DNA of 64,000 nt from Aneurinibacillus thermoaerophilus (lineage in GTDB: Bacteria > Bacillota > Bacilli > Aneurinibacillales > Aneurinibacillaceae). The stretch covers positions 62,001 through 126,000 of the forward strand of contig NZ_FNDE01000004.1 of NCBI RefSeq assembly GCF_900099925.1. The letters are read 5' to 3'. The translations under genes and the position numbers were made by a program. Below the pieces are notes generated by a model. That model was not told the DNA's origin and ran no database searches. It saw nothing but the letters and a program-made list of their open reading frames with translations. Shown here in pieces: positions 6,625 through 16,124 of this stretch (position 1 is its first letter; every line of letters begins with the position of its first letter).

Positions 6625-7857
6625 CTATACCAGAACGGCCGGGGCTATCGTTTTCTTTATATTGTCTATCATATGATCCGGCACACGATTTGCGATCTCT
6701 TCACCGATTTTGATAGAGGCTGTGGCTGCTGGTGAAGGGGCATTGCATACATGCATCGAGCGTTTACCTGAAAAAATGGCGAAATCGTCCACCATGCTTC
6801 CATCGTGCATGATCGCCTGTGCCCGCACCCCGGCATGGGTCGGGACAATATCTTTCTCAGTCAATTCTGGAATCAGACGTTGCAAACTGCGCAGAAACGC
6901 CTGTTTGCTGAAAGAGCGAACCATTTCGTTGATACCTTCCTTCATATTTGGCATTGCCATTTTCCAGAAGCCTGAATAGGTTAACACCTCAAACAGATCC
7001 TTCAAACTGATATCCTTTTTGGTGTAACCTTCACGCTTGAAGGCTAATACTGCGTTCGGCCCAGCGTGAACTTCCCCATTAATCATACGAGTAAAATGAA
7101 CACCGAGGAAGGGAAAGTTCGGGTTAGGCACCGGATAAATTAAATGTTTTACGAGATGGCGTTTTTCAGGAATCAATTCATAGTATTCACCACGGAATGG
7201 CACGATTTTCATCCCGGTGTGCATATCGGCCATTTTGGCTACCCGGTCACTGTGCAAGCCGGCACAGTTAATCAGGAAGCGTGCTTTAATCGTGCCGCGA
7301 TTTGTTTCAACTGTGACGCCGCCTTTTTCCTCGGCAATATTCTCCACTTTGGTGGACAGGCGCAAGTCACCGCCACCCTCTTCAATCATTCGCGCAAACG
7401 TGCGAGCAACTCCTTTATAGTCCGCGATCCCGCAACTCGGCACACGAATCGCGCCAAGGCCGCGCACATGCGGTTCAATCTCTTTCAATTCTTCCGGGCC
7501 AATTTTCGTTACGTTCAATTGATTCTGCAAACCGCGCTTATATAAATTGTCCATCAGCGGCAACTCTTCCGGCTCTGTTGCTACAATCACCTTGCCGCAC
7601 ACTTCATATGCAATGCCGTGTTCTTCACAGAACTTCACCATCGCTGCATTCCCTTCCCGTGCAAAACGCGCTTTAAAACTGCCAGGCTTATAATAAATCC
7701 CGGAATGAATAACACCGCTATTGTGTCCCGTCTGGTGCCGGGCCCAATCGGCTTCTTTTTCAATCATGACGATCTTTGCACCCGGAAACCGCTTCATGAG
7801 CGCCATCCCTGTCGATAAGCCTACGATCCCTCCGCCGACAATCGCAAAATCATACAT
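6625..7857 (-). CDS. lhgO: L-2-hydroxyglutarate oxidase (FAD-dependent)
   Basis: LhgO oxidises L-2-hydroxyglutarate to 2-oxoglutarate and passes electrons to the quinone pool. The 410-residue protein starts MYDFAIVGGGIVGLSTGMAL, an ADP-binding Rossmann fold for FAD. The family motifs HQTGHNSGVIHSGIYY (about 42-57), FLINCAGLHSDRVA and VPTHAGVRAQA follow, and length matches. The start at 7857 has GGAGG eight bases upstream; the frame to 7881 lacks a ribosome site. It follows glaH by about 120 bases, so the product of GlaH is the substrate of this enzyme. Confidence 0.92.
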   Translation of the reverse strand: MYDFAIVGGGIVGLSTGMALMKRFPGAKIVMIEKEADWARHQTGHNSGVIHSGIYYKPGSFKARFAREGNAAMVKFCEEHGIAYEVCGKVIVATEPEELPLMDNLYKRGLQNQLNVTKIGPEELKEIEPHVRGLGAIRVPSCGIADYKGVARTFARMIEEGGGDLRLSTKVENIAEEKGGVTVETNRGTIKARFLINCAGLHSDRVAKMADMHTGMKIVPFRGEYYELIPEKRHLVKHLIYPVPNPNFPFLGVHFTRMINGEVHAGPNAVLAFKREGYTKKDISLKDLFEVLTYSGFWKMAMPNMKEGINEMVRSFSKQAFLRSLQRLIPELTEKDIVPTHAGVRAQAIMHDGSMVDDFAIFSGKRSMHVCNAPSPAATASIKIGEEIANRVPDHMIDNIKKTIAPAVLV

Positions 7858-7939
7858 GCTATGTTCCTCCTCTATCCCCATTTATGGGATGCTGCTAGTA
7901 TTTGTCTATTTTTATTATTTATATTTATATGCCATATAA

Positions 7940-7977: not shown

Positions 7978-8919
7978 TTATACACGGGCAAAATACCCGC
8001 GCTGGCGCATCAGCTCACGGTACAATTCCGGATGTTTTTCAAACGGGGCACGACCATGCATCCAGAAGCTATTGTTCAGAATCACCAAATCGCCTACCGG
8101 AAGTTTTAACGCATGCACTGCCGGAGAATTTTCCAGGGATTCAGATAACTCTTTCAAATAAAGAGCCTGTTCGATCGTTTCCGGATACGCGAATTGGTCG
8201 ATAAAGCAGATGCAAGGCTTGTTATTGATTTCATAAAAAGTAGCGCGATGCACAACTTGCTCCACATTTTTGCTCGGTGGTGCTTTATACGTAATTTTCA
8301 CATTCGCGAGCGGATGCTTGCTGAACTTTTCAAGATCTTCCCAGTCATCGAGATGCAGCAAACGAGATTCACCGCCAACCGCATTTTTCTCGTCCATTTT
8401 CATCATGAGCAACCAGTCTGTCGGCTCATCTACGAATGTGCCATCCGTATGAAGTGTGAACAGGCGATACGCTTGACGCAAATAAGAGTCGCTGTTGTCT
8501 GTATCTTTCACTGTAAAACGCGCATAGAATGTTCCGGTCATCGCGTCAAAGTTCGGGATGCCGATCAGGTGCGTTAAAGCTGTCCCAAATTTTACAAAAT
8601 CTTCTACATCTTCCGTTTTGCCCTGCACACTGATAGTGAAGCCGCCTGATTCGCGATCCTGAAGAATTTCGCGGATATTATCCATGAACGATTGACCGAA
8701 CAATTCTCTGAACTGGTGCGCCAGCACTTGCCGGGAATACGGAACATAGCGCAAGGATTGTTCGCTGTGCTCTTTGCAGCCGGCAAAAAACGTTTCAAGC
8801 AATCGGTCATCTAACTGAATGTGATATAGCCTTTTGTGGGCAGGATGCGGCATAATTTCATAGCCTGGTTGTTTTTGCACAAATTTCATCTCTCTTTTTG
8901 TCTCGGTAGCCATTGTCAT
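7978..8919 (-). CDS. glaH: Glutarate 2-hydroxylase (CsiD/GlaH, Fe(II)/2-oxoglutarate dioxygenase)
   Basis: GlaH hydroxylates glutarate to L-2-hydroxyglutarate, using O2 and 2-oxoglutarate and releasing succinate and CO2. The 313-residue protein is the family length. It shows the facial triad His157-x-Asp159 in LFTLHTDGTF and the distal His288 in NNSFWMHGRAPF, with arginines close by for cosubstrate binding. The ATG at 8919 has GGAGG nine bases upstream; a second ATG at 8913 is less well placed. It lies upstream of lhgO and is preceded by a 385-base structured leader with its own terminator. Confidence 0.93.
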   Translation of the reverse strand: MTMATETKREMKFVQKQPGYEIMPHPAHKRLYHIQLDDRLLETFFAGCKEHSEQSLRYVPYSRQVLAHQFRELFGQSFMDNIREILQDRESGGFTISVQGKTEDVEDFVKFGTALTHLIGIPNFDAMTGTFYARFTVKDTDNSDSYLRQAYRLFTLHTDGTFVDEPTDWLLMMKMDEKNAVGGESRLLHLDDWEDLEKFSKHPLANVKITYKAPPSKNVEQVVHRATFYEINNKPCICFIDQFAYPETIEQALYLKELSESLENSPAVHALKLPVGDLVILNNSFWMHGRAPFEKHPELYRELMRQRGYFARV

Positions 8920-9279: not shown

Positions 9280-9308
9280 ATGGTATCGTAATCTTAAATT
9301 TTTGTCAA
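9280..9308 (-). promoter_or_regulatory. Possible sigma-A promoter for glaH-lhgO
   Basis: A perfect TTGACA (9308-9303), overlapping the stop codon of the upstream gene, is followed after 17 bases by TACCAT (9285-9280), a 4/6 match to the -10 box. A start here would place the hairpin and the terminator in the glaH 5' leader. Confidence 0.4.
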
Positions 9309-9700
9309 TCATTTTTTTTACTATTTTCGCTATTTTTATAAAGTAAATACTGGTTATGCAGATCACGAAGAGCAGCGACAAGTGCATTCTGGGCTTTACC
9401 TTGATAAAAGTCTATGATGCGCCGGCTCAGCGCTTCAATGCCATCCTGCAGGCTGCAACCGCGCAGCAATTGACCGATAAAATCCCGGCCGTGTTCGGTC
9501 GCAAGCGTACAGGACGCTTCCAGAATCACGTGGTATTTCGCATCCGCTTCAACCGTAATCGTCAACGTATCAAAAATGCTGCGTGCCGCCATTCCCTGCG
9601 GCAAACGAGCATGGCCTGCGATAAAATACGTCTTGCCTGTGAACATAACCACAACACCACTTTCCGGGAGATTTTCTTTCTCCTGATCATACCCCTGCAT
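9305..9700 (-). CDS. DUF3870 domain protein of unknown function
   Basis: The protein is about 113-131 aa depending on start. It contains the DUF3870 pattern: TYFIAGHARLPQG near the N-terminus, an ITVEADAKYHVILEASCTL strand pair, and a C-terminal RIIDFYQGKAQNALVAALRD helix. No catalytic motif is evident and there are no membrane segments. It lies 40-90 bases after gabD. Start choice is weak: ATG at 9700 lies in the loop of a small CCTGC/GCAGG palindrome, and ATG at 9646 (MFTGKTYF) is the alternative nearest the domain. Its role in the glutarate route is unknown; association with the pathway is inferred from context. Confidence 0.7.
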   Translation of the reverse strand: MQGYDQEKENLPESGVVVMFTGKTYFIAGHARLPQGMAARSIFDTLTITVEADAKYHVILEASCTLATEHGRDFIGQLLRGCSLQDGIEALSRRIIDFYQGKAQNALVAALRDLHNQYLLYKNSENSKKND

Positions 9701-9739
9701 ATTTGCAGGTGTCAATTTTTTATGATGAAATACAAAATG

Positions 9740-11185
9740 TCACATCCGATCCATGTATACCGTTTTCACTTGGGTATAAAATTCAATCGCTGCTTTCCCT
9801 TGTTCACGGGATCCAGTGCTGGAGTTTTTGCAGCCGCCAAACGGCACTTGCGGCTCCGCTCCCGCTGTTTCTGAATTCACGTGCACAATGCCCGCTTCAA
9901 TATCATCCACGAACCGTTGCGCCAAGGTAAGGTTATTCGTGCAAATCGCGGAGCTGAGGCCATATTCTGTATCGTTCGCCAGTCCAACTGCTTCTTCGTA
10001 GTTCTTTACTTTAAAAAGCGCGATAACCGGCCCAAAAATTTCCTCGCGCGCGATACGGGCGTCGCGGCTTACGTTTTCAAAAATCGTCGGCAGCACATAG
10101 AAGCCGTTCGCAAGTTCCGGATCGGCCGGCGCCTCACCGCCGCAAAGCAGCGTCGCTTCTTGTTTTCCTGCCTCAATCATCGCCATAATACCATCGCGCT
10201 GTGTTTTAGAAACAGCCGGGCCCATAAACGTGTCTTTTTCCAGAGGATTGCCCACTTTGAGCGCTTTCGTACGCTCAACAAGCAAGTCACGAAACGCATC
10301 ATAAATTCCTTCTTCCACAATCACACGGCTTGTGGCCGTACACTTTTGTCCTGTGGAACGGAACGCGCCGCTAATAGCGATATTCACCGCTTTGTTCAGA
10401 TCGGCGTCAGCCAGCACGATAAGCGGGTTTTTACCGCCCATCTCCAGCTGCACTTTTTTTCCTTTTGCAGTTGCGCGCTCTTGAATGCGCAGGCCAACCG
10501 TATTTGAGCCGGTGAAAGACACTGCTTTAATATCCGGATGTTCAACGATCTCTGACCCGACAACCGAACCGCTGCCAAACACGCAGTTAACAACACCCGC
10601 AGGAAGGCCCGCTGCTTCAAACGCTTTCATTACATGGTACACAGATTTCGGCGTAATTTCGGCAGGTTTAATGACCACGGTATTGCCATAGATAAGCGCC
10701 GGAGCCATTTTCCACACAGGAATGGCAATCGGGAAGTTCCACGGCGTAATCAGACCGATCGGCCCCACTGGCACACGGGTCGTATAAAGAAACGTTTCCG
10801 CGTTCGCCGAAGGAACCACTTCACCGACCGGCTGCCGTCCTTCCGCCGCATAGTATTCGAGAATGCTGATGGCCCGCTGTGTTTCTCCGATTCCCTCCAC
10901 CAGCGTTTTCCCTTCTTCTAGCGTTAGATCGCGGCCTACTTCTTCCAAATTTGCCTTTAAATATTCAGCCGCCTTTAGCAAGTAGGATGCACGCTGCTGA
11001 AAAGAAAGCTTTTTCCATACCGCAAACGCTTTTTTCGCTGCTTGGACCGCTTCATACACATCTTCCGCTGCGCTCATCGGAAACTCGCCTAGCACTTCTT
11101 CCCAGTTGTGCGGGTTACGATTTTCGATATATTCGCCGCTCACAGGTTTTTTCCATTCACCGTTGATATAGTTTAAATAACGCAT
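9740..11185 (-). CDS. gabD: NAD(P)-dependent aldehyde dehydrogenase, probable glutarate/succinate semialdehyde dehydrogenase
   Basis: A 481-residue aldehyde dehydrogenase with the oxyanion asparagine motif [13 protein letters not shown], the general base Glu in LEMGGKNP and the nucleophile Cys in [10 protein letters not shown]. The C-terminal [20 protein letters not shown] resembles alpha-ketoglutaric semialdehyde dehydrogenases, so specificity cannot be read from sequence. Position between the aminotransferase and glaH suggests oxidation of glutarate semialdehyde to glutarate (DavD role) or succinate semialdehyde to succinate. ATG at 11185 is preceded by AGGTGGTGG; upstream in-frame GTG codons lie inside that site. 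Confidence 0.85.
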
Positions 11186-11275
11186 GTTATTGTCCACCAC
11201 CTATTTTAAAACACCTATTTTAAAAATTGCAAATTTTTACCTTGTGCTTCCTTTTTCGATCTTCTGCCTGCGTTA

Positions 11276-11290: not shown

Positions 11291-11327
11291 CTAAGTTAAC
11301 AAAATTGCATTTGTCAGTGTCTTTTGA

Positions 11328-12728
11328 TTATATCACTTTTTCGATTTGCCTTTCTTCGAAGCCCGAAGACGGTTGCTTCTTACGATAAAATACAAAATAG
11401 GAAGCAATAACAAGAACTGCGATAAGTGAAGTAAGATAGAATTGCAAACACATGTCCTCAATAAAAGCTTGTGCAACAAAAATACCTAACAAGATGATAA
11501 TAGTCGCATAGGTTAAGTAGGGAAACAACCACATTTTTACCTTAAGGGCTCCCGGATTTTCTTTTTCGATCTTTCTCCGCATACGTATATGTGAAAGAGC
11601 GATAAATATATACACAAGCATCGAAACGCCACCCGAGCTATTTGCCAAAAAAGCAAACAATTTATCAGGGGACACAAATTTGAATATTGCACAAATATAA
11701 GCAAAGCATGTGCTTGCCAGTACCGCCCAAACCGGTACCCCTCTCTTATTTACCTGTAAAAATATACGGTGCGCCTCTCCTTTTTGCGCAAGAGAATACA
11801 GCATACGTGAGCTTGTATAAAGCCCTGAATTCAAGACAGAAAGCAAAGAGATGAAAACAACGATATTCATAATTTGAGCCGCAGCTGGCAGGCCCGCCAT
11901 ATCAAATACACTCGCATATGGAGTTTTGAGCAAGTCTTTAGCATTCCACGGCAGAACAGTAACCAGCACAGCGACTGAACCAATAAAGAACACAAGAATG
12001 CGCCAAACCACACTGTTTATGGCTTTCATAACGTTCTTTTCCGGGTTTTCCGATTCCCCCGCCGCAATGGCTGCGACCTCACTTCCCACTAAGGAGAATG
12101 TAATAAAGACAACGCTGAGAAGAACCGGGAGAAATCCGTTCGGGAAAAATCCACCGTTTCCGGTAAGGTTAGAAAGACCCGGTGATTCAATGCCCGGTAC
12201 GAAACCAAAGATCATCGCTGTTCCCAGGCATAAAAACGCAATAATAGCAACTACTTTAATAAAAGCTAACCAGTATTCAAATTCTCCATATGTTTTGACT
12301 GAATAGATATTGGTAAGCGTCATCAAAACAGTCAAAGCTAGACTTCCTATCCACGCAGGTATGGAAGGGAGCCATTGATGAATCATAGCCCCTACTAACG
12401 TGGCTTCAATTGCGACAATGATCACCCAGTTAAACCAGTATAACCAGCCAATCATATATCCGGCCCATGGCCCAAGCGCTTGATGTGCATACGTAGCAAA
12501 AGAACCGCTATCAGGATTCAAAACAGCCATCTCTCCAAGCATACGCATAACAAGAACTACGATCAAGCCTCCAATTATATAGGATAGAAGAGCACCGGGG
12601 CCTGCCGAGGTAATGATGGCGCCGCTCCCTACAAATAAGCCAGCGCCGATAACTCCACCGATAGAAATCATTGTTATATGCCGTTTTTTCAGATCTTTGT
12701 GTAGTGCCTGCTGTTCCAAAAGCTCCAC
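11328..12728 (-). CDS. gabP: APC-family amino acid permease, probable GABA/5-aminovalerate permease
   Basis: This 466-residue membrane protein has about 12 hydrophobic segments and the APC-family opening ISIGGVIGAGLFVGSG, with the glycine-rich first helix that binds the substrate carboxylate. GabP-type permeases import 4-aminobutyrate and related omega-amino acids with protons. Its place between the aminotransferase and dehydrogenase genes supports GABA or 5-aminovalerate as substrate. The start is GTG at 12728 or TTG three codons later; the ribosome site is poor (GGCGGTGGAG), so the exact start is uncertain. A 106-base gap with a hairpin separates it from gabT. Confidence 0.8.
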   Translation of the reverse strand: MELLEQQALHKDLKKRHITMISIGGVIGAGLFVGSGAIITSAGPGALLSYIIGGLIVVLVMRMLGEMAVLNPDSGSFATYAHQALGPWAGYMIGWLYWFNWVIIVAIEATLVGAMIHQWLPSIPAWIGSLALTVLMTLTNIYSVKTYGEFEYWLAFIKVVAIIAFLCLGTAMIFGFVPGIESPGLSNLTGNGGFFPNGFLPVLLSVVFITFSLVGSEVAAIAAGESENPEKNVMKAINSVVWRILVFFIGSVAVLVTVLPWNAKDLLKTPYASVFDMAGLPAAAQIMNIVVFISLLSVLNSGLYTSSRMLYSLAQKGEAHRIFLQVNKRGVPVWAVLASTCFAYICAIFKFVSPDKLFAFLANSSGGVSMLVYIFIALSHIRMRRKIEKENPGALKVKMWLFPYLTYATIIILLGIFVAQAFIEDMCLQFYLTSLIAVLVIASYFVFYRKKQPSSGFEERQIEKVI

Positions 12729-12834: not shown

Positions 12835-14163
12835 TTATTTAGAAGCTTTTGCAATCGCTTGTTCTAAAATGTGCAACCCTTTTTCTAAGTGTTCATCTGT
12901 AATCACAAGCGGTGGCAAGAAACGAAGCACATTGCCGAAGATACCCGCACTTAAACCGATTAAGCCGTTGTTCCAGCATTCTGTCACGATTTTGCCTGTC
13001 TCTTCTTTCGCCGGCTCTTTCGTTACGCGATCCCTTACTAATTCAAGCGCAACCATTGCACCAAGCCCACGTACATCTCCGATAAGATCGTATTTCTCCT
13101 GCCAACTGCGGAAGGCATTCATCATGCGATCGCCGATGACTTGCGCACGTTCTACCAAATTCTCTTCTTCAATAACATCAAGCACCGCAAGGCCTGCCGC
13201 ACATGCCACTGGGCTTCCAGCGAATGTGCCACCAAGCTGTCCAGCTCCAGGTGCATCCATCAATTCAGCGCGTCCTGTAATGGCACTAAGCGGCATACCT
13301 GCTGCAATGGATTTGGACATTGTAGTAATGTCCGCCGCTACCCCGTAGTTTTCCATCGCAAACAATTTCCCTGTACGGGCAAAACCGGTTTGGATTTCAT
13401 CCGCAATCATAAGAATGCCGTACTTGTCACAAATGCGGCGTACGCCCTGTACAAAAGTAGTGGAAGGAACAATGAATCCACCTTCGCCCTGTACTGGCTC
13501 CATGATAATAGCAGCGATATGATCTGCTCCCACTTCACCGAGGAAGAATTGTTCAAAATGATGTAAAACTTGCTCGTCCAGTTCCTCTGGCAACATTCCT
13601 TGCGGTGCACGATAATAATAAGGGTAAGGCAATTTATATGTTTCCGGGGCAAACGGTCCGAAGCCATGTTTATACGGATTTACTTTGCTTGTTAAAGACA
13701 TGGTCATTAAGGTACGGCCATGGTAGCCGCGTTCAAACGAAACAACAGCGCTGCGACCGGTCGCTTTCCGGGCGATTTTCACAGCGTTCTCCACCGCTTC
13801 CGCGCCGCTGTTCGCAAACATGGTTTTCTTTTTAAAATCGCCCGGCGTTTTTTCGTTCAATTTTTCTGCAAGCTCAATATAGCTTTCGTACGGCATAACA
13901 TGAAAACAGCTATGAATAGAAGCCGCCGCCTGCTCTTGAATGGCTTTTACCACTTTCGGATGACAGTGACCAATATTCTGCATACCGATACCACCAGCAA
14001 AATCAATCAATTCATTGCCATCTACATCAGTAACGATGGCTCCTTGCGCCGATTGTATATATAGCGGAGTTACATGATACGGACCTACAGGAACCGCCTC
14101 TTGACGGCGAGCATGTAATTTTGCAGATTTTGGACCTTGTGATGTTTGTGCGTTTGTCGTCAT
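12835..14163 (-). CDS. gabT: PLP-dependent omega-aminotransferase (4-aminobutyrate / 5-aminovalerate aminotransferase)
   Basis: The class-III aminotransferase fold covers the whole 442 residues: FAGGIGMQNIGHCHP, MFANSGAEAVENAVKIAR for phosphate binding, IADEIQTGFARTGKLFA with the PLP aspartate, and the Schiff-base lysine in TTMSKSIAAGMPLSA. GabT/DavT enzymes move the terminal amino group of 4-aminobutyrate or 5-aminovalerate to 2-oxoglutarate, giving the semialdehyde and glutamate. The glutarate genes downstream favour a 5-aminovalerate role, but specificity cannot be read from sequence. ATG overlaps the regulator stop as ATGA, so the two are translationally coupled. Confidence 0.9.
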   Translation of the reverse strand: MTTNAQTSQGPKSAKLHARRQEAVPVGPYHVTPLYIQSAQGAIVTDVDGNELIDFAGGIGMQNIGHCHPKVVKAIQEQAAASIHSCFHVMPYESYIELAEKLNEKTPGDFKKKTMFANSGAEAVENAVKIARKATGRSAVVSFERGYHGRTLMTMSLTSKVNPYKHGFGPFAPETYKLPYPYYYRAPQGMLPEELDEQVLHHFEQFFLGEVGADHIAAIIMEPVQGEGGFIVPSTTFVQGVRRICDKYGILMIADEIQTGFARTGKLFAMENYGVAADITTMSKSIAAGMPLSAITGRAELMDAPGAGQLGGTFAGSPVACAAGLAVLDVIEEENLVERAQVIGDRMMNAFRSWQEKYDLIGDVRGLGAMVALELVRDRVTKEPAKEETGKIVTECWNNGLIGLSAGIFGNVLRFLPPLVITDEHLEKGLHILEQAIAKASK

Positions 14164-15911
14164 CTGTTCTCTTCCTTTCCTTTTCCTAAATATTTGTTCA
14201 TCTTTCGCACAATCGTAGATTGGTTGACTTTTAGCGCCTCAGCACAACGGTACGTATTTTCGTATTTTTGGTAGGCCATAGAAATCAATTGCTTTTCCAC
14301 TTCTTCGACGGCTTGCTTCAGTGGACATAATCCTTTTATTTTTATTGCCCAGGCCGCCTGGTAATTCTTGCTGTCTTCCCAAAGACTCGCCGGCAAATGG
14401 TGTGGTAATACTTCTGTCCCTTCGCTTGTTACAATCAAGCGTTCCACCATATTTTCCAGTTCTCGCACATTGCCGGGCCAGTCATAAGCGCTCAAAATCT
14501 CGATTGTGTCTTCATGGAACTGCTTGTACAACCCGTATTTTTTTGTAAAACGAGCGATAAAGTGTTGAATAAGAGCTGGAATTTCTTCTTTACGCTGGCG
14601 AAGCGGAGGAACTGAGATCGGAATAACGTGCAAACGGTAAAACAAATCTTCACGAAAACGACCTTCTGCAATCAGCTTGTGTAAATCTTGATTGGTCGCA
14701 GCAATAATACGCGTATTTACCGTTAGCAACTGATTTCCGCCAAGCCGACGGAACGTATTATCCTGCAAGAATTGCAAAAGTTTCACCTGCACGCTTAACG
14801 GAATTTCGCCGATTTCGTCAAGAAACACGGTACCGCCGTCCGCGATTTCCAGCACACCTTTTTTCGACGTATTCGCTCCGGTAAACGCCCCTTTTTCGTA
14901 TCCAAACAATTCCGATTCAATCAATGTGTCCGGGATGGCCCCACAGTTGATATGGACAAAGTTTTTCGTACGGCGGTGACTCGCCCGATGCACACGTTGC
15001 GCAATCATCCCTTTCCCAACTCCAGATTCCCCCATAATTAAAATGGTGGAGTCAACGTGAGCCACCCGTTCGGCCAGCTGGTAAATTTGCTGCATTTCCG
15101 GCGAAAGCACCACCATGTCGTCCTGAGGTTCATCTTTGCTTTGCTTCAGCTTCTCCAATTCAAGACGGTAAGCATCCAGCAAGCTTTCCGTCGTTTCCAG
15201 ACGCTGGCGCAGCATCTCGACTTCTTCGTACTCTCGTGAGTTAAAGATAATTCGATGGAGGCTGCCGTCCGGGTTGAATACCGGGTTTCCGATTACGTGC
15301 AGCTTTTTTCCATTTACCGTCACCTGAACGCCGGACACTTTTGTCCGCTTTCTGATAATTTCCGGCGTAATGCTCGGCGTAAATACGCCTTCTGCGGCAA
15401 GTTCCGTCGTTTTTTTTCCCAGTAATTCACCAATGGGCCTTCCGTACAACTGCTCACTTTTCGGCCCAGCGCGCAAAATTCTTCCTTCTCCGTCCGTCAC
15501 CAAAATCTCATCAAACGACGTATCAAAGATATTTTCCAGCTCAAAGTACTGATCATCGCGCCGCAGGACAAGAAAATCCGCCGTATGAATACCACCTTCG
15601 TAACACCGCTTCCATTCCCCGCGCAAAGAAAAAGAAGGAGTTTTAATCTGCGTCTCCCAAAAGTCCTGTCCAACCCGGCAAAACGATTCATAGGAAGAAA
15701 AAACAAGAGGTAAGACATCAGACAGATGCTTGCGTACTACGTCCGTTTCTTTAAAGATAAACCAATTCTCCATCTTGCCCTTCCAATGAATAATAAATCC
15801 ATCTGGAGACAGGGCAAGCATGCCGTACGGCATCTGCATCCACAGCTTGTCAATATCCGGTGCAGCATACGTTTCCAAAACCCTCACCTGCTTCCTCGTC
15901 TCCCTTCTCAT
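14160..15911 (-). CDS. Sigma-54-dependent enhancer-binding regulator of the gab/glutarate operon
   Basis: This activator of about 583 aa has N-terminal PAS-like sensing regions (about 15-110 and 120-230), a short coiled linker, an AAA+ domain (about 275-510) and a C-terminal Fis/TyrR-type helix-turn-helix. Walker A GESGVGKG, the sigma-54 contact loop GAFTGA and Walker B GGTVFLDEIGE are intact. It should activate RNA polymerase carrying sigma-54 (SigL) from its own upstream promoter, and through it gabT and following genes. ATG at 15911 was chosen; GTG at 15926 and a downstream GTG after GACGAGGAAG are alternatives. Confidence 0.9.
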   Translation of the reverse strand: MRRETRKQVRVLETYAAPDIDKLWMQMPYGMLALSPDGFIIHWKGKMENWFIFKETDVVRKHLSDVLPLVFSSYESFCRVGQDFWETQIKTPSFSLRGEWKRCYEGGIHTADFLVLRRDDQYFELENIFDTSFDEILVTDGEGRILRAGPKSEQLYGRPIGELLGKKTTELAAEGVFTPSITPEIIRKRTKVSGVQVTVNGKKLHVIGNPVFNPDGSLHRIIFNSREYEEVEMLRQRLETTESLLDAYRLELEKLKQSKDEPQDDMVVLSPEMQQIYQLAERVAHVDSTILIMGESGVGKGMIAQRVHRASHRRTKNFVHINCGAIPDTLIESELFGYEKGAFTGANTSKKGVLEIADGGTVFLDEIGEIPLSVQVKLLQFLQDNTFRRLGGNQLLTVNTRIIAATNQDLHKLIAEGRFREDLFYRLHVIPISVPPLRQRKEEIPALIQHFIARFTKKYGLYKQFHEDTIEILSAYDWPGNVRELENMVERLIVTSEGTEVLPHHLPASLWEDSKNYQAAWAIKIKGLCPLKQAVEEVEKQLISMAYQKYENTYRCAEALKVNQSTIVRKMNKYLGKGKEENR

Positions 15912-15937
15912 TTTTCTTCCCTGCACATTTTCTAAAT

Positions 15938-15954
15938 AGCAAATACTATGCCAA
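15938..15954 (-). promoter_or_regulatory. Sigma-54 promoter of the regulator-gabT operon
   Basis: TTGGCAT-AGTAT-TTGCT matches the -24/-12 consensus. The invariant GG (15952-15951) and GC (15940-15939) are exactly 10 bases apart. Transcription would begin near 15927, about 16 bases before the start codon. Confidence 0.85.
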
Positions 15955-16007
15955 AATTAAAAACTTTATTTCTGAGGAATTCTTATAAAAGAAGGGAGAG
16001 AATATTA

Positions 16008-16021
16008 ATGCAATTTCGCAT
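16008..16021. promoter_or_regulatory. Proximal enhancer-type palindrome for the sigma-54 activator
   Basis: ATGC-AATTTC-GCAT, centred about 87 bp upstream of the predicted sigma-54 start. It shares the ATGC-N6-GCAT form with the two sites at 16090-16124. Binding by the adjacent regulator is inferred. Confidence 0.6.
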
Positions 16022-16089
16022 TCAAATCTATTTTAATATACTGAATAATTATAACCTATGTATTATTTATAACTTTGTATTTATTTTTA

Positions 16090-16124
16090 ATGCTAATTTG
16101 CATCAATATAATGCTATATAGCAT
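16090..16124. promoter_or_regulatory. Pair of enhancer-type palindromes, 21 bp apart
   Basis: ATGC-TAATTT-GCAT (16090-16103) and ATGC-TATATA-GCAT (16111-16124) have centres 21 bp apart, two turns of the helix, so dimers would sit on the same DNA face. They lie about 170-190 bp upstream of the sigma-54 start, a normal enhancer distance, and also just upstream of the divergent hit gene. Confidence 0.65.

Follow-up and report, generated by a model that had tools for sequence, protein, structure and literature searches.

Several described systems resemble the locus reported here. In Bacillus thuringiensis, GabR activates gabT together with sigma-54 and binds an upstream repeat region, while gabR itself is not sigma-54-dependent (PMC4279683), so that self-activation cannot be taken from that case. 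GabR responds to GABA and succinic semialdehyde, and its site, described as an inverted repeat of 21 bp inside a 96-bp footprint, is located upstream of a TTGGCAT...TTGC promoter (PMC4279683, PMC4428206). In Escherichia coli, NorR needs three enhancer sites at norVW, which scaffold a higher-order, probably hexameric oligomer (PMC2941729). The csiD-lhgO-gabDT glutarate/lysine route stands in Pseudomonas putida under the control of CsiR (GntR) and GcdR (LysR) (PMC6265302, PMC6667623).

The locus lies in a 64-kb stretch of Aneurinibacillus thermoaerophilus DNA, which was analysed as a whole and is called the window. As with GabR, a PAS-AAA+-HTH sigma-54 activator is encoded beside a gabT-like gene with a sigma-54 promoter, and repeats lie upstream of the promoter. 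Judged against the published description of the GabR site, the window differs in carrying three separate dyads. Furthermore, B. thuringiensis gabR forms a separate, non-sigma-54 transcription unit and csiD and lhgO are not reported there, whereas the regulator gene described here directly follows the sigma-54 promoter. NorR is alike in its three sites but has a GAF regulatory domain and other target genes. The enzyme set of the glutarate/lysine route is clustered here as well, headed by a sigma-54 activator. From these comparisons and from the conservation described below, we consider it highly likely that the region serves a self-activated sigma-54 operon as its enhancer and promoter. A switch of this kind, with positive feedback over the glutarate/L-2-hydroxyglutarate route, was not found in the literature searched. 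The B. thuringiensis gabT promoter was also sought by its printed sequence: the 15-base form in the text, which lacks one T compared with the table in PMC4428206, gave no match, and the 17-base form occurs at three places in distant genomes; neither form identified a gab locus.

Architecture of the proposed enhancer and promoter

The original prediction had placed three ATGC-N6-GCAT palindromes and a GG-N10-GC promoter at 15938-16124. These lie in the 278-bp intergenic region between a HIT gene (16205, plus strand) and the large minus-strand regulator gene. All three dyads were recovered at the proposed centres (16014.5, 16096.5 and 16117.5), and the 21-bp separation claimed for two of them is that of the distal pair. 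The elements are as follows.

16111-16124: dyad 1, farthest from the promoter, ATGCTATATAGCAT; proposed site for an activator dimer, with position and spacing kept in 10 other orthologous promoters
16090-16103: dyad 2, ATGCAAATTAGCAT on the minus strand; separated from dyad 1 by 21 bp, or two helical turns
16008-16021: dyad 3, proximal, ATGCGAAATTGCAT on the minus strand; 82 bp from dyad 2 and 55 bp from the -24 GG
15938-15953, minus strand: sigma-54 promoter with -24/-12 element, TGGCATAGTATTTGCT; conserved in all orthologues

In the direction of the operon, the order is thus dyad 1 (16124-16111), dyad 2 (16103-16090), dyad 3 (16021-16008) and TGGCATAGTATTTGCT (15953-15938). The promoter contains GG-N10-GC within TGGCAY-N5-TTGCW, and it is the sole mismatch-free TGGCAY-N5-TTGCW site in the 64-kb window; no other sigma-54 promoter with at most one mismatch was found in the window's gene cluster. 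Sigma-54 itself (Sigma54_DBD) is encoded in the genome. Transcription would start near 15928, which places the dyad centres at about -87, -169 and -190. The dyads therefore lie in the range of about 80-200 bp upstream that characterizes enhancers (UAS), and they are conserved together with the activator in eleven genomes.

Two further elements were noted in this region. A fourth ATGC-N6-GCAT at 15820-15833 lies inside the regulator reading frame, where it encodes MPYGM, and identical codons form the dyad in two orthologues; as a regulatory dyad it was rejected as a coding coincidence. Between dyads 2 and 3, the block TTCAGTATATTANAAT (16022-16060, minus strand) is conserved in several Aneurinibacillus promoters and could possibly be a basal promoter or an additional binding site.

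The regulator combines an N-terminal sensory domain (PAS, E=5.3e-8) with a sigma-54-activator AAA+ domain (PF00158, Sigma54_activat, E=1.6e-69) that holds the Walker A motif GESGVGKG and the GAFTGA loop, as in enhancer-binding proteins. It ends in a helix-turn-helix whose best Pfam match is HTH_50 (E=1.1e-9) and whose recognition helix reads KVNQSTIVRK. Judging from the alignment with orthologues, translation probably starts at the TTG at 15878 (SD AGGTGA), about 50 bp from the predicted transcription start, and not at the listed GTG at 15926. That GTG falls at the predicted transcription start, and one orthologue (L044) has an ATG at the position aligned with the TTG. Among solved structures, the HTH matches best, though weakly, the TyrR DNA-binding domain (E 0.077). 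TyrR acts with sigma-70 on boxes of the form TGTAAA-N6-TTTACA, which have the same 6-bp central spacer as the dyads here but a different half-site. The NorR sites differ from these dyads in both sequence and spacing.

Conservation across orthologous operons

The regulator orthologues collected come from six further Aneurinibacillus species and a related genus, where they share 72-84% identity with the window's regulator, and from three genomes of other families, where they share 54-59%; A. danicus, A. aneurinilyticus and A. terranovensis are among the records. The original prediction had suggested searching related genomes for the palindromes near homologous regulator genes and had named their absence there as a refutation; this search did not refute it. 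Sites, spacing and promoter proved to be conserved at 10/10 other orthologous operons found, so that the 2+1 dyad layout with its -24/-12 element is present in eight Aneurinibacillaceae, the window included, and in three genomes from other families. In the ten orthologues, the spacing is 20-21 bp between dyads 1 and 2 and 78-82 bp between dyads 2 and 3, the latter with one exception at 68 bp, and 44-63 bp separate the end of dyad 3 from the -24 GG.

When the eight Aneurinibacillaceae sequences were anchored on the sites, mean pairwise identity was 0.48 in the N6 spacers, 0.40 in the flanks, 0.88 in the promoter and 0.95 in the half-sites, the last value being somewhat inflated by the finding of sites by pattern. 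An alignment built without use of the sites also lines the dyads up. In some orthologous dyads ATGT replaces the distal ATGC, which gives the consensus (A/G)ATGY-N6-GCATT. Because sites and spacings are kept in ten related operons, the dyads are very probably docking sites of the regulator encoded by the operon's own first gene. The main line of the original prediction is thereby supported, apart from two details of the gene cluster addressed below.

Genes of the operon and the predicted pathway

The cluster that would be read from the TGGCATAGTATTTGCT promoter contains the following genes.

14160-15878, minus strand: regulator gene; PAS, sigma-54-activator AAA+ with GAFTGA loop, C-terminal HTH_50
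12835-14163, minus strand: gabT-like class-III aminotransferase (4-aminobutyrate or 5-aminovalerate); TIGR00700, 602.8 bits, cut-off 506.65; overlaps the end of the regulator gene by 4 bp
11328-12728, minus strand: GABA-permease-like amino acid permease; place in the cluster varies between species
9740-11200, minus strand: aldehyde dehydrogenase; putative succinate/glutarate semialdehyde dehydrogenase
9305-9715, minus strand: DUF3870 protein; conserved in the Aneurinibacillaceae cluster
7978-8919, minus strand: csiD/glaH glutarate 2-hydroxylase; NF002814, 450 bits, cut-off 333
6625-7881, minus strand: lhgO L-2-hydroxyglutarate oxidase; NF008726, 616 bits, cut-off 299

For the regulator-gabT operon of the original prediction, a plain "gab operon" is too narrow a label, with csiD/glaH and lhgO in the same conserved cluster. 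CsiD and LhgO, which both exceed their NCBIfam cut-offs, point to a route from 5-aminovalerate via glutarate and L-2-hydroxyglutarate to 2-oxoglutarate, as in the pathway of PMC6265302. Since the operon also holds these two genes, the 5-aminovalerate/glutarate pathway appears more likely than GABA alone. The DUF3870 gene follows the aldehyde dehydrogenase gene in all Aneurinibacillaceae clusters examined, and its product may be a component that the glutarate route otherwise lacks.

A half-match at 11309-11301, upstream of the aldehyde dehydrogenase gene (gabD), had also been proposed. Its second half-site is absent, and the candidate near 11305 was rejected as incomplete. In five orthologous clusters gabT is immediately followed by the aldehyde dehydrogenase gene, which leaves no space for a promoter between the two, so this half-site is not needed and is probably due to chance.

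The array beside paralogous activators

Regulator similarity alone was used to retrieve 40 loci. An ATGC pair at 20-22 bp is present in 16 of these, while the other 23 permuted half-sites gave zero pairs at that spacing in the same loci. A scan of 398 Bacilli genomes for the looser pair found 24 positive genomes, compared with 2 for a reversed control pattern. Outside the genus, several AT-rich pair matches adjoin both a perfect sigma-54 promoter and an activator of 44-48% identity, and in most cases a third dyad follows after about 70-80 bp; the remaining matches, with no sigma-54 site or regulator close by, are probably chance. At the paralogues, the array is located after the regulator gene and before the next operon (e.g. 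locus L064). Due to this recurrence beside more distant paralogous activators, the ATGC-N6-GCAT array looks like an enhancer code of a PAS/AAA+/HTH sigma-54 activator subfamily in Bacilli.

The paralogues that carry the array are mostly those with an N/DQST recognition helix. More specifically, an exact site occurs within 650 bp of 27 of the 32 regulators with a [VIT][ND]Q[SA]T helix, eight of which are close orthologues, compared with 7/36 others (Fisher p = 1.2e-7), and some SQSS-type regulators also have single sites. On the AAA+ tree the recognition helix changes at least 8 times, but there are only three well-supported independent pairs, of which, on average, 1.6 agree and 0.0 oppose (p about 0.5). 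With so few supported independent contrasts, the association is not shown to be independent of ancestry, and as a recognition code it is suggestive. Tentatively, and with slightly less than even confidence, we propose that a fixed 2+1 ATGC-N6-GCAT arrangement is the code of the whole diverse subfamily, read by a [V/I][N/D]QST helix, in which three dyads would place three dimers as one hexamer, so that specificity and ring stoichiometry could both be read from the DNA.

Alternative readings of the dyads

How surprising the dyads are in the single sequence depends on what was fixed beforehand. For the fixed word ATGC-N6-GCAT, 0.007 sites are expected in the 278-bp intergenic region, and 0 of 20,000 dinucleotide shuffles contained two copies. 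Three copies were reached in about 2% of shuffles when any 4-bp half-site with N6 was allowed, and three copies of some dyad in about 15% when half-site and spacing were both free; for this reason the window sequence by itself is only moderate evidence if half-site and spacing are picked post hoc. In the 3.66-Mb genome, AATGC-N6-GCATT occurs at four places, two of them in this region, and the looser tandem pair ATG-N7-GCAT-N7-ATG-N7-GCAT occurs here only. The shuffles would still leave room for the palindromes as a chance product of AT-rich intergenic DNA, but half-sites and spacing are conserved between flanks of only about 40% identity, and the control half-sites gave no pairs. Conservation thus refutes a chance origin, to which we assign a negligible probability. 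It is also very improbable that the dyads serve the divergent HIT-family gene and that the sigma-54 promoter works independently of them. In the window, a distance of 80 bp separates dyad 1 from the start codon of HIT, yet the HIT gene adjoins the array in three species only, the window's and two others. Several orthologous loci lack it and have other neighbours, while their array keeps its distance to the regulator promoter; the sites thus go with the regulator.

A different factor, such as a repressor or a further activator from this subfamily, might use the dyads as operators and co-regulate the operon. The literature search for the motif turned up the consensus ATGC-N6-GCAT for the unrelated, CRP-like Xanthomonas Clp (PMC7205486), so the word alone is not diagnostic, and the motif is common to several paralogous activators. 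Nevertheless, the sites accompany the regulator orthologue across at least four families and eleven genomes, motif-bearing paralogues have their own copies beside their own targets, and the geometry is that of a sigma-54 enhancer adjoining a perfect -24/-12 element, all of which makes a different factor distinctly unlikely. Somewhat less improbable, though still unlikely, is a division of labour in which the distal pair alone is the true enhancer and dyad 3 chiefly holds down a basal promoter from which the feedback starts. A -10 element could be contained in the block TTCAGTATATTANAAT, immediately upstream of dyad 3, and TATAAT abuts dyad 3 in two species; a convincing -35 was not found, however, and paralogous promoters located downstream of their regulators have a dyad 3 too, although autorepression would be less sensible there.

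Proposed mechanism and significance

The regulator, with its PAS, AAA+ (GAFTGA) and TyrR/Fis-type HTH domains, would bind each ATGC-N6-GCAT dyad as a dimer. Two dimers would sit side by side on one helix face, 21 bp apart, with the third about 80 bp nearer the promoter. The 21-bp step corresponds to two helical turns, 80-82 bp to about 7.7 turns and the 68-bp variant to about 6.5 turns, so that the helical phase is roughly kept. The three dimers may assemble into one hexamer on the dyads, in which case the DNA would set the stoichiometry of the active ring. The hexamer would then loop to RNA polymerase-sigma-54 at 15953-15938 and melt the closed complex open by ATP hydrolysis. As a trigger, the PAS region may sense an inducer, probably 5-aminovalerate, GABA or a derived semialdehyde. 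The promoter is followed first by the regulator gene, whose product would thus activate its own operon and establish positive feedback; a basal promoter to start this feedback was not identified.

On this reading, a sigma-54 switch with positive feedback would control the glutarate/L-2-hydroxyglutarate route. For a large group of Gram-positive sigma-54 activators, most of them without assigned targets, the finding also supplies a site sequence and a geometry that can be tested, and regulons could be predicted from the DNA and the helix sequence. Its interesting part is the wider, possible subfamily-wide code. The ATGC dyad motif may already be drawn among the UAS logos of a Clostridiales regulon study (PMC6615313).

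Further occurrences of the motif

In the window's genome, a second place combines one ATGC-N6-GCAT with a sigma-54 site (L147, G000:C74:32195-32285). It lies upstream of an agmatinase-family gene and about 14 kb from another sigma-54 activator gene on that contig. Given this single site and the at least six other activators of the regulator's kind encoded in the genome, a paralogue could also bind. Tandem dyads with a perfect sigma-54 site were found at L063 (G005:C3:468505-468539), a possible extra regulon member; a homologous regulator was not found in the 3-kb stretch examined. On a Priestia megaterium plasmid (L098, 5464-5546), the sigma-54 promoter of the plasmid gabT is preceded by one exact dyad at 61 bp (centre to -24), which is the distance of dyad 3; the regulator next to it, however, has an SQSS helix.
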